The notes under the pieces: generated by a model | Databases searched by the model: none | Told to the model about the DNA's origin: nothing | Seen by the model: the letters and a program-made list of their open reading frames with translations, nothing else | Shown: piece after piece, positions 4,376-56,023 of the stretch | How the letters are laid out: every line of letters begins with the position of its first letter | Numbering within the stretch: position 1 is the first letter of the stretch | Origin: Hyphomicrobiales bacterium | Lineage (GTDB): Bacteria; Pseudomonadota; Alphaproteobacteria; Rhizobiales; HXMU1428-3 | Assembly (NCBI GenBank): GCA_017640685.1 | Contig: JAEPQF010000001.1 | Coordinates: forward strand, 17,015-74,101 | Direction: 5' to 3' | Length of the DNA stretch: 57,087 nt | Position numbers and translations under genes: made by a program

Positions 4376-5857
4376 ATGATTCCCATTACAGTTTATAAAG
4401 ATAAAAATGTCGCATTGTTTGGGTTGGGTATTACTGGTTTAAGCGCGGCTGGGGCTTTAAAGGTTGGAGGCGCCAATGTTGTTGTGTGGGATGAGAACCA
4501 AAGTCGTTGTGAGACAGCGTCAGATGCAGGGTTTGATGTTGTTGATCTAAATGAGGCTGATTGGTCTCAATTTGATGCTTTGTTATTGTCGCCCGGCGTT
4601 CCGCTTACTCATCCTGAACCTCATTGGACTGTTAAAAAAGCGCAGGCAGCTGATGTTCCCATCATTGGTGATACAGAGTTGTTTTTTGAAGAGTTTTTGC
4701 ATCGCGGTGAGCGTGACCGAGTTTTAGTCATTACTGGAACGAATGGGAAATCAACAACCACGGCTCTTACCACTCATATTTTGAAAGAAGCTGGTGAAAC
4801 GGCTGTTATGGGGGGGAATATTGGGCTTGGTGTTTTAGATATGCCTGATTTTGCTGCTTCAGAGAGTGAAGATGGCAAGATTTATGTTTTAGAGCTTTCT
4901 TCTTATCAAATAGATTTAACGCCTTCTCTTTGCCCAACTGCTGCGGGGTTGTTGAATATTTCCCCTGATCATATTGACCGTCATGGAACAGTTGAGAATT
5001 ATGCTAATGTGAAGGCTAAAATATTTGCGAACTTAGAAAAAGAAAACCTTGCGGTCATTTCTTTTGATGATTTCTATTGCCAACAAATTGCGCTGAATTT
5101 ATCGACCAAAAGTGAAGTGCTTTTTGTGAGCTCGACACCTTCAATTGAAAATGGTGTGGTCATTGAAGAGAGCGGTTTTTCAATAGTCAAAGATACTGAA
5201 GTTGTGCGCCAAGTTGATTTGAGAAGTGCGCCGCATTTGCGTGGTAAACATAATATGCAAAACGCAGCGTTTGCAGTTTTACTTGCGCTGAAAGTTTCGG
5301 GTGATTTTGAAGGTTTGCTTAAGGGATTGATTAGTTTTCCTGGTCTTGATCATCGTATGCAACAAGTTGCGACTTTAACGAGAAGTTCTGAAGCTCAAAA
5401 TTTAGAGCGGCGGCTATTGTTTGTAAATGATAGTAAGGCAACGAATGCCGAAGCTAGCGAACAAGCTTTGAAAAGTTTTAATGAGATTTACTGGATTGCG
5501 GGTGGTGTTGCAAAAGAGGGCGGTATTAATGGGCTTGCGTCTCATATGAAAGGTGTTCGTCATGCATGTTTAATTGGCGAAGCTGCTAAAGAGTTTTCGA
5601 AAACTCTTGATGAAGTTGGTGTGCCTTATGATGTTTGTGTGGACATGGAGCGGGCTGTGAAAAAGGCGGTTGAAGTGGCATTGGGGAATGCGGCAAGTGG
5701 CACTGATACCACTGGCACTGGTTCTGAGGCGGCTATTTTACTTTCTCCTGCTGCTGCAAGTTTTGATCAATATCCTAATTTTGAAATTCGTGGTGATGCG
5801 TTTAAAGATATTGTTCGATCAATTGATGGTGTTTCCATGGGTGAAACACTTGTTTGA
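4376..5857 (+). CDS. murD: UDP-N-acetylmuramoyl-L-alanine--D-glutamate ligase (MurD)
   Basis: Adds D-glutamate to UDP-MurNAc-L-Ala. The N-terminal Rossmann-like domain begins with the FGLGITGLSAA segment, the P-loop GTNGKSTTT lies near residue 121, the middle domain has the NISPDHIDRHG segment, and the C-terminal domain contains the NDSKATN motif. Its 493 residues are somewhat longer than the ~440 of E. coli because of loop insertions, including a Gly/Thr-rich one near residue 445. It lies downstream of the mraY terminator and 19 bases before ftsW. Confidence 0.96.
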   Translation: MIPITVYKDKNVALFGLGITGLSAAGALKVGGANVVVWDENQSRCETASDAGFDVVDLNEADWSQFDALLLSPGVPLTHPEPHWTVKKAQAADVPIIGDTELFFEEFLHRGERDRVLVITGTNGKSTTTALTTHILKEAGETAVMGGNIGLGVLDMPDFAASESEDGKIYVLELSSYQIDLTPSLCPTAAGLLNISPDHIDRHGTVENYANVKAKIFANLEKENLAVISFDDFYCQQIALNLSTKSEVLFVSSTPSIENGVVIEESGFSIVKDTEVVRQVDLRSAPHLRGKHNMQNAAFAVLLALKVSGDFEGLLKGLISFPGLDHRMQQVATLTRSSEAQNLERRLLFVNDSKATNAEASEQALKSFNEIYWIAGGVAKEGGINGLASHMKGVRHACLIGEAAKEFSKTLDEVGVPYDVCVDMERAVKKAVEVALGNAASGTDTTGTGSEAAILLSPAAASFDQYPNFEIRGDAFKDIVRSIDGVSMGETLV

Positions 5858-8226: not shown

Positions 8227-8343
8227 TGTTGCTCGTTATGTTGCTTTATAGATTAAGTTTTTGTTTGTATTTATGGTGCCGCACGACTAGACCTAATGAG
8301 TTAACAATATAGAGTTTTTTGTTTGCGCTTTAGATGCACTTTT

Positions 8344-8387
8344 AGATGTGGCTTTAGTTTCCCACCAGAAACCGCCACAAAGCATCT
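8344..8387 (+). repeat. Hairpin repeat B, copy 1
   Basis: Outer stem TGGC/GCCA, bulge TTTA, inner stem GTTTC/GAAAC and loop CCACCA, embedded in a further arm AGATG/CATCT. It sits between murG and murC. The left arm of a second element (GCGCTTTAGATGC) lies just upstream at 8325-8337, with GCATC after the hairpin, so copy 1 looks as if it sits in the loop of another copy. Confidence 0.7.
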
Positions 8388-8400
8388 GAGTTTTTTAGTT

Positions 8401-8430
8401 GCGCTTTAGATGCCCACAAAGCATCCGCGC
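8401..8430 (+). repeat. Hairpin repeat B, copy 2
   Basis: Outer stem GCGC/GCGC, bulge TTTA, inner stem GATGC/GCATC and loop CCACAAA. The 15-base left arm TTGCGCTTTAGATGC is repeated directly at 8323 and 8399. The copy ends 18 bases before the murC start and contains the spurious upstream ATG at 8410. Confidence 0.7.
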
Positions 8431-18794: not shown

Positions 18795-18798
18795 CTTG

Positions 18799-18867
18799 GC
18801 GCTTCAAGTTGCCATTTTATAATAGGCCTTGAGGTTTCCCACAAGAAACCGGCCCAAGCAACCGTGC
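18799..18867 (+). repeat. Nested hairpin repeats B, copy 3 inside an outer copy
   Basis: The inner copy at 18825-18854 has outer stem GGCC/GGCC, bulge TTGA, inner stem GGTTTC/GAAACC and loop CCACAA. It lies in the loop of a second copy whose arms are GCGC-TTCAA-GTTGC (18799-18812) and GCAAC-C-GTGC (18858-18867). This is the clearest nested case in the window. Confidence 0.7.
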
Positions 18868-24694: not shown

Positions 24695-24708
24695 ATTAAA
24701 CTTTCTTT

Positions 24709-24743
24709 AGATGCTCCTTCGGTTGCCCATAAGCAACCGTCGC
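24709..24743 (+). repeat. Hairpin repeat B, copy 4
   Basis: Inner stem GGTTGC/GCAACC with loop CCATAA, preceded by a TCCTTC bulge-like segment and weak outer arms (GATGC ... GTCGC). Confidence 0.6.
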
Positions 24744-24828: not shown

Positions 24829-24899
24829 CATGTCCCTCAGCCTGGATCCGGTTGCTGGTGGACAACTGAAGGACAAAAAAGGCAAGGCTCCTTCTTCGT
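24829..24899 (+). repeat. Module C, copy 1, containing an inverted repeat B
   Basis: Starts with a small GGCG/CGCC hairpin and CATGTCCCTCAGCC, and ends with GGCTCCTTCTTCGT. Its centre (24847-24873) is a reverse-strand copy of hairpin B: on the minus strand it reads TCC, TTCA, GTTG, a TCCACCA loop, CAAC, GGA. It shares its ends with module C copies near 26010 and 55972. Confidence 0.65.
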
Positions 24900-25927: not shown

Positions 25928-25944
25928 TTTGGCTTTTCTCTTTT

Positions 25945-26083
25945 CTCTCACGGGCTATTCTGCCGTTGAAGCGGCAGGCCCTCCGAGGTGCGGCGCAACG
26001 CGCCGGACGCCCTTGGCGTCATGTCCCCCAGCCTTATGCCAGTTGCCATTAGTAACTGGCATAAGGCTGGGCTCCTTCTTCGT
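25945..26083 (+). repeat. Composite palindromic repeat, modules A and C
   Basis: Module A (25945-25988): CTCTCACGGGCTATTC, stem TGCCG/CGGCA, then GGCCCTCCGAG. Next comes a CGGCG/CGCCG hairpin, then a GACGCC/GGCGTC hairpin, then module C: ATGTCCCCC, a perfect 15-base stem (AGCCTTATGCCAGTT) with a loop containing CCATTA, and GCTCCTTCTTCGT. It fills the spacer between prmA and the DUF3754 gene. The same A-to-C order recurs at 55867-56023. Confidence 0.75.
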
Positions 26084-27609: not shown

Positions 27610-27670
27610 GCGCTTCAGTTGTTTTTTTAAAGGCCCTTCAGGTTTCCCACCAGAAACTGGCCTTAACGCG
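27610..27670 (+). repeat. Hairpin repeat B, copy 5, nested in a degraded outer copy
   Basis: Inner copy 27632-27662: outer stem GGCC/GGCC, bulge CTTCA, inner stem GGTTTC/GAAACT and loop CCACCA. It sits between GCGC-TTCA-GTTG (27610-27621) and TTAACGCG, the arms of an older copy. Confidence 0.65.
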
Positions 27671-27700
27671 ACTACGCTTTATTACGTAATTAAAAAAAAG

Positions 27701-45666: not shown

Positions 45667-45768
45667 GACCGGCAAGGCCTCTTTCTTTTGGTGACTAAAA
45701 CTATATTTATAATTCAATTTAAACAGAAATAGAGCCCATTTGATAGATATTTATTCTGTTTAAAGAAT

Positions 45769-45796
45769 GGAGAGCTTCTGTTGCCCGGTGCTCTCC
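45769..45796 (-). terminator. Hairpin at the 3' end of the tmRNA coding piece
   Basis: GGAGAGC/GCTCTCC stem around a 14-base loop, followed on the minus strand by ATTCTTT. Probably the end of the ssrA transcript or of its coding piece. Confidence 0.5.
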
Positions 45797-46204
45797 AAAC
45801 CGCGCCTAGTCAGGCTTAATTGACTAGGAGTTTTATTTCAGTGCACATCACCGCTTACTAAGCAGCTTGAGCAACTGGAGCATAGTTGTCGTTTGCAACT
45901 AATGTAATGGTCCGATACCGGTGGTACCATGCCGAGCGAAAGACCACCCTTTACACCCTCGTCGATCCTATTTCGCCCCCATCAAAAACAGGCTAGCCTG
46001 TTTGTAATTCGTTTTGTGCTTGCCTTTAGGTTTTTTGTTTGAACCCATTAATCTTAGGCTTGCACTTAAATTACTAGCGGCCTTGCCAGCTTTTGGTGGA
46101 GGCGCCGGGTACCGCCCCCGGGTCCGAATGGTTTATTACGATGACAGTTTATCGCCATAGCGGAAATTCTCCCGCAACCTCAATATAGTGCAGCTCCATG
46201 GCAA
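45769..46204 (-). ncRNA. ssrA: Circularly permuted two-piece tmRNA (ssrA)
   Basis: Rescues stalled ribosomes and tags the nascent chain. As in other alphaproteobacteria the gene is permuted: on the minus strand the acceptor piece comes first, ending ...CGCCTCCACCA at 46094, then an intervening segment (45981-46093), then the coding piece beginning GGGGGCG at 45980. GGGGGCG and CGCCTCC form a 7-pair acceptor stem with a G-U at position 3, the alanine identity. The tag frame runs 45896 to 45858: resume codon GCA, peptide ANDNYAPVAQAA, then TAG-TAA. The outer 5' end near 46204 is estimated. Confidence 0.93.
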
Positions 46205-46386
46205 AAAAAAGGGTTTGTTTGTCAAAAGGGTAACTGAATGGTTGAAATTATTTGGAAAACTGACAATTTTTCTCATTTCAAGCAATTTGCCCACTGAGTG
46301 AGCCTAACCTTTTGTTACCAGTAAGCTTGGGGATTGGGCGGGAAAAAGCCTAGACCTATTTGGAATTTTAAGCCAAAACAGAGGGC

Positions 46387-47791: not shown

Positions 47792-48011
47792 AAACTCTCC
47801 CGTTAATCACAAAAACTCCCAAAAACCTCTTTTTGAGCAGTAAAACTGGACTAAAGTTCTGGTTTTATGTGTGTTTTATTGCGTTTCATGGTTGATCATC
47901 TGTTAACGAATTAAGTTTATCCTTTCGGTAGTATTTAACCTGCTTTCAGTTTTGAACTGGGGTGGAAAGAAAAGATACAGTTTAATTTTATTGCAATTCA
48001 GGGGTGGATTA

Positions 48012-49484
48012 ATGGGTGTGCAATTATTAGTGGATGAAGCTGTTGGTTTAGATGTTTCGGATGAGACAACGCATGGCCAAAATGGGCCAAAAGATGCGGC
48101 TAAGTTAGAGGCAGTTAAACAAGCCTTTGACGTGTTAAGTACGAGAGTTAGTCATTTAGGTTTGGATATTGCCGAAGCTTCAGGAACAATTGAGGGGATT
48201 GCAGACCGCTCATGTGCTGATAAAGAAGAATTTTTGAGTTTTATTGAAAAGATTAGAGAATTGCGTGCGGTTAATGATGAAATCGCAAAAGAAATCCAGC
48301 ATTCAAGTGAAATTGCTCGTGGTGCTAACCATGAGATGATGGCATCTCAAGATACGGTTTCTACAACAGTTGATAAAATTTCCGGTCTTGTTGGTTCTGT
48401 TGAGAAAATTCAATCTGCGATGACAACTATGAGTTCGTCGCTTGAGAGTGTTGGAAATATTGCAGGTGTAATTAACGGTATTGCTAAACAAACGAATTTG
48501 CTAGCGCTGAATGCGACGATTGAAGCAGCGCGTGCTGGTGAGGCTGGTAAAGGTTTTAGTGTTGTAGCGAGTGAAGTGAAAGCGTTGGCAGGTTCAACCT
48601 CTCAAGCAACAGCTGAAATTGAAGAAACACTAGAAGAAATAAAAAATGGTTTCTCGCAACTTAGCCAGCAAAGTGATGATGCAACATCAACTGCAAGTGA
48701 AGTTGAAAAACAAGCTGCTATGTTTACCGAGCTTCTCAATGGCTCTTCTCAATCTCTCTCTGAAGTGGATGATGCGACAGATCAAATCTCGATGCGTATG
48801 TCGAGTGTGATTGATATTTGCAGTGGTATTCTTTCTTCCGGTGATGTGGTTTCAGCTAATGTTGATCAAGCAAATGAAGCGTTGCATGCTGTTTCTAAGA
48901 AAATGAGCCAGGTTTGTGACTCAGGTGACGAACTTGTTGTGATTGCGGCGTCACACGATGCAGCTATTTCAGATACTGACATCATTAATTACACAAAAGA
49001 TGGTGCGAAGGAAATTTCTCAAATTTTTGAAGCTGCTATTCAAAGTGGGCGAATTCAAGTTTCGGATTTGTTTGATCGTAACTATCAAGAAATGCCGGGA
49101 ACTAACCCTGTACAGTATTTGACAAAATTTACTGAGTTTACGGATGAAGTTTTGACGCCTTTGCAAGAGCGTTTACTAACAAAAAATGATCATATTGCAT
49201 TTTGTGCAGCAGTTGATGATAAAGCTTATTTGCCAACGCATAATAAGAAGTTCTCTCAACCTCAAGGGGATGACCCGGTTTGGAATGCAGCGAATTCACG
49301 TAATCGTCGGATATTTGATGATAAAACGGGTAGCCGATCAGGCGCGAATACGAAAGATGTTCTGTTGCAGACTTATTTACGTGATATGGGCGGCGGGAAT
49401 TTCGTCGTGATGAAGGATTGCTCGGCGCCAATTTGGGTGCAAGGGAAGCATTGGGGTGGGTTTAGAGTTGGTTACAAACCTTAG
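48012..49484 (+). CDS. Soluble methyl-accepting chemotaxis-type protein 1
   Basis: 490 residues without any membrane span. The signalling domain has the classical hairpin tip ([22 protein letters not shown]) near residues 155-180 and flanking heptad-rich helices (~75-330). The C-terminal ~100 residues form a separate domain with motifs GDDPVWN, NRRIFDD, RDMGGG and HWGGFR, of the type found after the signalling domain in some chemoreceptors and likely sensory. The ATG at 48012 with GGGTGG upstream is preferred over the track's TTG at 47952. A close paralogue lies downstream; no che genes are nearby. Confidence 0.88.
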
Positions 49485-49760: not shown

Positions 49761-51218
49761 ATGTCTGAGATTTTAAAAAAGAGTGATGTAACCTCTATTA
49801 ATGAGGGTGCGAATTCTTGCTTTGTTGAGGATGATCGCTCTGATGTGATGGAAAGCCTTAACCAAATAGGTGAAAATTTAAGCCGGGTTGGGCTTGACGT
49901 TGCGGTTTCTGCTGACGTTGTTCAAGAGATTGCGGCGACGGCAAAAAAGGATGTTCAGCAATTTTCTGTTTTTGTTGAGCAAATTTCTGACCTCAAACAC
50001 ACGACAACAGAAATTTCAGATAATATTTCAAAAGCAAAATCAGTAACCCATGATGCGAGCCAAGAGATAACTGCTTCACAGAGTACGGTTGTTTCAACGA
50101 ACGAGGAAATTTCAAACTTAATTGAAGCGGTACGAGAAAGTGAAGCGCGTTTGGTCAAGTTAAATGAAGCCCTTGAAAGTGTTGGTAGCATTACAAATGT
50201 TATTAATGGGATTGCGAAACAGACGAATTTACTTGCTCTTAACGCAACGATTGAAGCGGCGCGCGCTGGGGAAGCGGGTAAAGGGTTTAGTGTCGTTGCG
50301 AATGAGGTTAAGGCGCTTGCCTCTTCTACTTCAGAAGCCACCATGCAAATTGAAGAAACACTTGGAGAAATCAAAACAGGTTTTGATTTGTTAAATGTGA
50401 CAAGTGAAAACACTTCAAAAACAGCGTTAAAGGTACAAAATTGCTCAGGCACATTTAGTGACATTCTTAGCAAGGTTTCTGAGGCTATGGAAACAATCGA
50501 TTTAACAACGGGTGTTATCGACCAACAAATGACGACAGTGAATTCAACGTGTCATGATTTTTCTGAGAATTCGACGGAAATGGCTTTGAATATGCAGAAT
50601 TCGAGTGAGAAATTAAACGATGTTTCTCAATCTATGCGGCATGTGGCTGATGAAAGTGACAAGCTTGTTTTGCTTTCTGTTATGAACGGAACCAATAAGG
50701 ATGAAGCGGCTATTATTCACAAAGCAACTATGGCTGCTGAACGTGTGGCAGTGCTCTTTGAAGACGCTGTTTCTTTAAATGAACTAACTGAAGAAGATTT
50801 GTTTGACCGAGAGCATGAACTTGTTCCAAATACTGATCCTCAGCAGTTTATTGCAAAATTTACTGATTTTAGTGATCAGAAAATTTCTCCATTGATTGAG
50901 GAAATTGTGTCAAGTGATGAGCGAATAGCTTGGTGCGCAGCAACAGATAACACTGCTTATATTGCAACTAATATTAAGAAAGTTTCGCAACCTCAAGGGG
51001 ATGACCCCATTTGGAATATGGCAAATTGTCGTAATCATCGTTATTTTAGTGATTTTACTGGAATACGGGTTGCTAAGAACCAAGAACCTTTATTGTTGCA
51101 AACCTATCAAAGAGACATGGGGGGTGGGGTTTTTGTCCCCATGAAAGATATTAGCTCGCCTATTTTTGTGAATGGACGTCATTGGGGTGGGTTTCGAATA
51201 GGTTATACCCCTGATTAA
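49761..51218 (+). CDS. Soluble methyl-accepting chemotaxis-type protein 2
   Basis: 485 residues, same layout as its upstream neighbour: a variable N-terminus, long helices, the hairpin tip ([22 protein letters not shown]) near residues 150-170, and a C-terminal domain with GDDPIWN, RDMGGG and HWGGFR. The N-terminal ~40 residues differ most from the first copy. There is no membrane span and no methyltransferase-binding tail motif of the NWETF type. A GGGGGA tract precedes the ATG. The pair probably arose by tandem duplication and then diverged. Confidence 0.88.
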
Positions 51219-55732: not shown

Positions 55733-55745
55733 AAGTTTTTTAGCT

Positions 55746-55776
55746 GTGCTTCAGGTTGCCCATAAGGCAACCGCAC
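55746..55776 (+). repeat. Hairpin repeat B, copy 6
   Basis: Outer stem GTGC/GCAC, bulge TTCA, inner stem GGTTGCC/GGCAACC and loop CATAA. This is one of the most regular copies in the window. Confidence 0.8.
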
Positions 55777-55806
55777 TTAACCCTGCGGGTTAGAAGTTTT
55801 TTAGCT

Positions 55807-55837
55807 GTGCTTCAGGTTGCCCATAAGGCAACCGCAC
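55807..55837 (+). repeat. Hairpin repeat B, copy 7
   Basis: Identical to copy 6 and placed exactly 61 bases later as part of the tandem duplication. Confidence 0.8.
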
Positions 55838-55866
55838 TTAACCTTGCGGGTTAGAAGGTTTATTGT

Positions 55867-56023
55867 CTCTCACGGGCTATTCCGCCGCTATAGCGGCGGG
55901 CCCTCCGAGAGGCGGTGTTTTTTTATGCTTCAGTTGCCCACCCATGCAACCGCACTAACACCGGTCTTTGCTGGCGCTGTGCCATGTCCTTCAGCCCTAA
56001 AAAGGGCTGAACTCCTTCTTTGT
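55867..56023 (+). repeat. Composite palindromic repeat, modules A, B and C
   Basis: Module A (55867-55910): CTCTCACGGGCTATTC, palindrome CGCCGCTATAGCGGCG, GGCCCTCCGAG. Then hairpin B copy 8 (55926-55954: TGC, TTCA, GTTGC, loop CCACCCAT, GCAAC, C, GCA). Then module C (55972-56023): a TGGC/GCCA hairpin, CATGTCCTTC, stem AGCCC/GGGCT, CTCCTTCTTTGT. The A and C ends match those at 25945-26083 while the stems differ. Confidence 0.75.

Follow-up and report, generated by a model that had tools for sequence, protein, structure and literature searches.

Dispersed hairpins with fixed replication polarity in a genus of Hyphomicrobiales: probably a non-autonomous REP-like mobile element that prefers hairpin loops

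A set of small intergenic hairpins recurs in the window (the whole stretch of 57,087 nucleotides analysed here), with one loop and one bulge kept while the stems differ, and this raises the question of what is being maintained, a folded RNA, a folded DNA or a mobile unit. An initial annotation had listed nine such hairpins and proposed a selected structure, as DNA or RNA, that might be a mobile REP-like element. All nine are present in the window sequence, and a covariance model (R1), run with filters off, recovered 9/9, with E values from 1.9e-14 to 0.0021 (the weakest at 24704-24743). A pattern with free mismatches, applied to the window alone, was uninformative (29 matches against 23 expected). 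No Rfam family matches the hairpin; the only models above gathering score in the window are those of tmRNA, and a permuted two-piece alphaproteobacterial tmRNA gene lies at 45766-46214 on the minus strand. The hairpin copies of the window and the repeats that host two of them are as follows.

8329..8390, plus strand: host hairpin of copy 1, a same-family copy whose loop contains copy 1 (fold of 8323-8398).
8340..8377, plus strand: hairpin copy 1, a T-rich tract and TGGC/TTTA/GTTTC/CCACCA, nested; R1 42.2 bits, E 2.8e-10.
8392..8430, plus strand: hairpin copy 2, GCGC/TTTA/GATGC/CCACAAA; R1 56.1 bits.
18816..18854, plus strand: hairpin copy 3, GGCC/TTGA/GGTTTC/CCACAA; R1 36.0 bits.
24704..24743, plus strand: hairpin copy 4, with an imperfect outer stem (GCTCC..GTCGC type); R1 19.4 bits, E 0.0021.
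24846..24883, minus strand: hairpin copy 5, the sole minus-strand copy of the window; R1 41.4 bits.
27624..27662, plus strand: hairpin copy 6, GGCC/TTCA/GGTTTC/CCACCA; R1 30.2 bits.
55737..55776, plus strand: hairpin copy 7, GTGC/TTCA/GGTTGCC/CATAA, the first of a 61-nt tandem repeat; R1 52.2 bits.
55798..55837, plus strand: hairpin copy 8, the second of the 61-nt tandem repeat; R1 52.2 bits.
55863..56022, plus strand: repeat family B, hosting copy 9, a multi-hairpin repeat TCTCTCACGGGCTATTC...CTCCTTCTTTG.
55916..55955, plus strand: hairpin copy 9, inserted in the repeat B hairpin CGGTGTT..AACACCG (7-bp stem; fold of 55905-55968); R1 41.1 bits.

The unit measures ~38 bases (36-40 nt) and is laid out as T tract, outer stem, TTYA, inner stem, CCCAYNA, inner stem', an optional C and outer stem'; copy 1 folds by itself at -11.1 kcal/mol. 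The bulge, loop and stem design first described is borne out, with three refinements. First of all, the two sides of the internal loop are unequal: the 5' side is TTYA, and with an inner stem of 5 bp a single unpaired C faces it on the 3' side. Second, the innermost pair of the outer stem is C-G in nearly every copy. Third, the column profile places a T tract within the unit, at about -12 to -8 from CTTCAG; a T run of at least 4 lies upstream of 177/271 copies as against 15/271 just downstream, and these tracts vary. The 3' boundary is the outer stem itself, past which the profile shows no conservation. In a 50-row alignment, 99.8% of cells pair and the covariation score is 0.49 against 0.10 when shuffled, with three outer-stem pairs taking several Watson-Crick types; these rows were pre-chosen as paired, and the unbiased test lies in copies picked solely by their 5' half and loop, whether or not their stems pair. 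Among the latter, 83/127 copies with 6-base loops and 94/127 with 7-base loops form at least 4/5 outer-stem pairs, where shuffling reaches no more than 46 and 67, respectively, and the inner stem is retained in 221/254 against a shuffle maximum of 197. The covariation claimed for the stems is thus strong also in copies chosen without regard to pairing, and for the dispersed family the proposal that the folded structure is under selection is supported.

The genome-wide search suggested with that proposal finds far more than a few copies. In the genome of origin (G000, a 3.5-Mb draft in 230 contigs, with the window on contig 111; several of its relatives are MAGs), a motif fixed on the 5' half and loop only has 113 exact matches, the reversed-pattern control having 0, and a fuller motif has 152, with 0 for its control in all 61 genomes searched. 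That fuller motif occurs 1 to 198 times per genome in the eight congeners and is absent from the 53 genomes searched outside the genus. Copy number varies within the genus: R1 finds at least 182 copies in the genome of origin, and for the seven other members the counts are at least 171, 164 and 163 (among G002, G003 and G004), at least 134 (G007), 40 (G005), 36 (G006) and 3 (G001), the high counts being lower bounds and the lowest coming from a 95%-complete genome. In a second family of the order the hairpin is patchy, occurring in 15/38 genomes with up to 74 copies (G313); the copy-bearing G313, G256 and G321 have sister genomes with none, and order-wide it includes sequences of 57-67% GC that keep the TTCA bulge and a CCCACNA loop. 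Named records with the same hairpin are Hyphomicrobiales MAGs labelled Methyloligella, Rhodomicrobium and Hyphomicrobiaceae and one Filomicrobium chromosome; together with the alphaproteobacterial tmRNA, they put the window in an uncultured genus of Hyphomicrobiales. As to a phage origin, IMG/VR gave no match.

The copies are intergenic and dispersed; in the window, copy 2 lies directly 5' of a murC-like gene. In gaps between co-directional genes, 66 copies are antisense to both neighbours and 38 sense, and convergent gaps hold 41 copies, divergent gaps 18. In the high-GC genome G256, one copy (L189:1475-1525) sits in a stretch that by eye resembles a biotin-carboxylase reading frame, and an insertion inside a gene is possible there. 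Elsewhere in the window, adjacent related genes at 47952-49484 and 49761-51218 (repeats 1731 nt apart, 71-76% identical) suggest a tandem gene duplication.

What sets the orientation of the copies? Within 1.05 Mb of sampled sequence, part of which was picked for containing hairpin copies, 218/223 model hits share the majority strand of their contig and 5 lie on the other. Among the first 100 matches listed for G002, minus and plus copies number 47 and 3 on contig 1, 18 and 1 on contig 2, and 0 and 31 on contig 3. Neighbouring copies within 200 nt share their orientation, head-to-tail, in 55 cases and oppose each other in 1. At four-fold sites, G exceeds C on the favoured strand in 9/9 contig samples and likewise in the window. 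By the usual convention the G-rich strand is the lagging-strand template, to which hairpin orientation thus appears to be tied, the fork direction being read from GC skew only; motifs marking rRNA or ribosomal genes, sought for fork direction, were absent from the sampled stretches, and GGGNAGGG octamers were dropped as a polarity marker, being too scarce and themselves dependent on GC skew. Replication polarity is apparent in the long contigs of the second family too. Genes, unlike the hairpin copies, are split about evenly between the strands, and the window copies at 24704 and 27624 stay on the plus strand amid minus-strand genes. Orientation tracks replication and not transcription, and the hairpin therefore probably acts as DNA rather than RNA; of the two options that the initial annotation had left side by side, the first gains and the second, lacking a link to transcription, does not.

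An RNA hairpin selected in transcripts, be it an sRNA, an attenuator or part of a terminator, would fit the intergenic placement and the combination of covarying stems with a constant loop that is typical of RNA. However, orientation is set by the contig and not by neighbouring genes on their evenly used strands, the T tract lies on the 5' side, so that the hairpin is no terminator, and an Rfam match is absent; we regard this explanation as very improbable. Near-perfect polarity in the genus, its appearance in the second family and the constancy of loop and bulge would also be expected of a chromosomal functional site spread by selection, for example a lagging-strand hairpin serving a replication or segregation protein (a polar sequence, like those of primosome assembly). 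Against such a site speak the mere 3 copies of a 95%-complete congener, the patchy distribution and the fact that copies interrupt each other and other hairpins, which makes it quite unlikely. We consider it probable that the hairpin is a non-autonomous REP-like mobile element, inserted as single-stranded DNA into the lagging-strand template with a preference for hairpin loops; the mobile REP-like character proposed at the outset is thus likely. A caveat to insertion as the source of the strand bias is that selection could account for part of it.

Residence in hairpin loops, which the first reading had missed, is seen at 8340-8377, 18816-18854, 27624-27662 and 55916-55955, each lying in the loop of another hairpin. 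Copy 1 is framed by the host arms TTTAGATGC (8329-8337) and GCATCTGAG (8382-8390), and its locus has orthologous nested forms in G002 and G003; copy 3 is nested between the GTTGC and GCAAC arms of another family copy (about 18798-18866), and copy 6 in a decayed copy (about 27610-27674), with orthologous nested forms in G002 and G004. Copy 5 sits within a repeat B remnant, CCCTCAGCC..GGC..CTCCTTCTTCG, and an ortholog of copy 7 exists in G004. Flanking stems of 7 bp or more surround 19/332 distinct copies, as against 3.5 with shuffled downstream flanks (maximum 11) and 2 with flanks displaced by 30 nt; with own-family hosts removed, the count is 13/199 against 1.2 shuffled (maximum 4). The host loops belong both to the same hairpin family and to the unrelated repeat B. 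About 90% of the copies have no detectable flanking stem, and loop insertion explains a minority of copies unless host hairpins decay quickly.

Repeat B is a multi-hairpin intergenic repeat of the genus (TCTCTCACGGCTATTC..CTCCTTCTTCG), present at many loci, with a T-rich 5' end and a covarying first hairpin; its copy at 55863..56022 is 85% identical across 53 nt to window positions 25941-25993. It shows the same replication polarity as the hairpin (22/23) and probably represents a further mobile repeat of this type.

Filled and empty sites are found between species at the same locus. In one pair, G004 has CCAAGCGCTT(TTTATAGTGGCAC..CCGTGCTGAA)GCGCTTGG, with the insert in brackets, where G003 has CCAAGCGCTTAAGGCGCTTGG, and the unique flanks match; another locus is filled in G004 and empty in G002. 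The first hairpin of repeat B reads CCAAGCGC-TTATG-GCGCTTGG when empty and CCAAGCGC-(TTTTTTGTGGCACTTCAG...CCGTGC)TTAA-GCGCTTGG when filled, with seven filled cases. A clean 37-nt insertion lies in the T run of a third repeat (L138 vs L039); this repeat, which hosts hairpin copies, has the form GTTTTAGCGTTCC..CCTAAAACCGGTATCCACTTT..GGCGGAACGC (L138:300-380 reverse strand, and L039). The compared junctions revealed no fixed target-site duplication or target-site rule, as they disagree on length and are ambiguous by 2-5 nt.

Tandem duplication through slippage explains some of the hairpin clusters, and one could go further and have the replication machinery do all of the copying, switching templates or slipping from hairpin to hairpin in lagging-strand gaps, with no dedicated enzyme. 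Tandem arrays with a spacing of mostly 30-69 nt, a single host loop in which G002 has one 32-nt unit more than G004, the strand bias, the variable T tracts and the failure to find a transposase all agree with this. Near-identical units at unlinked loci and in the unrelated repeat B, however, would need long-range copying with fixed ends, and we give the idea little credence as a full account.

If the hairpin is, as we favour, a non-autonomous mobile element, which enzyme moves it? Our searches covered Y1 (PF01797) and Y2 (PF04986) transposases and reverse transcriptases (RVT_1). For Y1, G000, G001, G005 and G006 gave no hit and G002, G003 and G007 sub-threshold hits only, and PF01797 is absent from the second-family genomes G201, G256, G289 and G059, the first two of which are copy-rich. 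Within the genus only G004 exceeds the cut-off, with two Y1 genes. These RAYT-like genes (L133:1451-2125 and 5011-5676) are flanked by AATTACGGTGACAGT repeats and form a separate REP-type system. The link to a RAYT or TnpA-Y1 transposase that had been suggested for the hairpin is thus unsupported, Y1 being missing from its own genome and from most relatives rich in copies, and a different repeat flanking the Y1 genes of G004. An IS91/ISCR-type Y2 transposase was rejected, since within the genus it has a single partial match, in G004, and does not track copy number. Retroposition was considered because the variable T tract is an A tail on the opposite strand; it was rejected as well, RVT_1 occurring only in G000 and G005 and being absent from G002 and G004, so that a reverse transcriptase is not general to copy-rich genomes. 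No transposase was seen beside two tandem arrays, whose neighbours read as ordinary genes.

Against a classical REP/REPIN system whose mover, a RAYT (TnpA-REP), has since been lost from these genomes speak the absence of Y1 from G000 and from the copy-rich G201 and G256 and its sub-threshold state in G002. The hairpin does resemble REPs in size, extragenic placement and copy number, the bulge matters for recognition of E. coli REPs, which are single-strand substrates (PMC8266576), and G004 does carry two Y1 genes. But those genes are flanked by AATTACGGTGACAGT repeats instead, the foot of the hairpin has neither a GTAG nor a CGTC tag, and neighbours lie head-to-tail by 55 to 1 and not as inverted pairs; a lost RAYT is thus unlikely. 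The mover is not an intact Y1, RAYT, Y2 transposase or reverse transcriptase common to the high-copy genomes, and it may have been lost, have diverged, belong to a different class or be the replication machinery.

For the non-autonomous element that we favour, movement as single-stranded DNA at the fork is suggested by IS608-type elements, which insert likewise into the lagging-strand template (PMC6006769), and the constant bulge and loop may be the handle of a protein. The strand would fold once exposed single-stranded on the lagging-strand template, and a putative protein would recognise the bulge and loop of the folded hairpin. The element would then be inserted, in single-stranded form, where the template is unpaired, with the loops of already folded hairpins as the main sites; the most accessible targets would be other copies, giving rise to nested and head-to-tail clusters. 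That this amounts to a new kind of single-strand transposition, in which an uncharacterised enzyme puts a hairpin of less than 40 nt into lagging-strand hairpin loops and nesting accumulates with fixed polarity, is a possibility that we put forward tentatively. REP-like repeats are common in bacteria, and outside RAYT systems their mobility lacks an explanation. With its many copies, its filled and empty sites, its preference for hairpin loops and its near-absolute replication polarity, this family makes the mobility of enzyme-less palindromes testable, and it points to folded DNA single strands at the fork as possible targets in themselves.

Among known systems, small mobile hairpins for which no enzyme is known include the double-hairpin elements of fungal mitochondria and the palindromic elements of Rickettsia; these inhabit different genomes. 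The REP/RAYT systems (GTAG REPs, with their REPINs and BIMEs) share with the hairpin a length of 20-40 nt, a bulged palindrome and an extragenic location, and the hairpin, like them, is a short extragenic palindrome with over 100 copies. In E. coli, REP recognition takes place on single-stranded DNA (PMC8266576). The hairpin differs in that its 5' foot shows TTYTT in the column profile, with the GTAG tag absent, and in its lack of a RAYT, its strict replication polarity and its nested insertion in hairpin loops; REPINs and BIMEs are inverted, whereas hairpin pairs within 200 nt are in the same orientation (55 vs 1). The CGTC REPs of alphaproteobacteria share the bacterial class and are likewise short high-copy palindromes, with stems of 8-9 bp, loops of 4-5 nt and a terminal CGTC tag, mostly in head-to-head dimers (PMC3733652); the hairpin, on the other hand, carries its TTYA internally between two stems, pairs head-to-tail and lacks the terminal unpaired CGTC tag. 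IS200/IS605 elements (IS608, ISDra2) insert as single-stranded DNA into the lagging-strand template and are recognised by their end hairpins (PMC6006769). The hairpin has the corresponding orientation, as judged by GC skew, and its insertion in that manner would be an analogous event, only inferred here; it contains, however, no gene and no pair of end hairpins, and a Y1 transposase is missing from most of the genomes. IS1397, ISKpn1, IS621 and ISPsy8 insert in REP sequences (PMC1525189) and are thus also mobile elements aimed at a short palindrome, but they are kilobase-sized and have transposases, while here the inserted unit is a hairpin of less than 40 nt and several hairpin families are targeted. 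In the open-access literature we found no description of a hairpin of such size inserting into the loops of several hairpin families. In its behaviour the hairpin resembles a REP or a minimal IS200/IS605 end, yet its lack of a GTAG or CGTC tag and of a RAYT, and its neighbours, which are not inverted, set it apart from the REPs.
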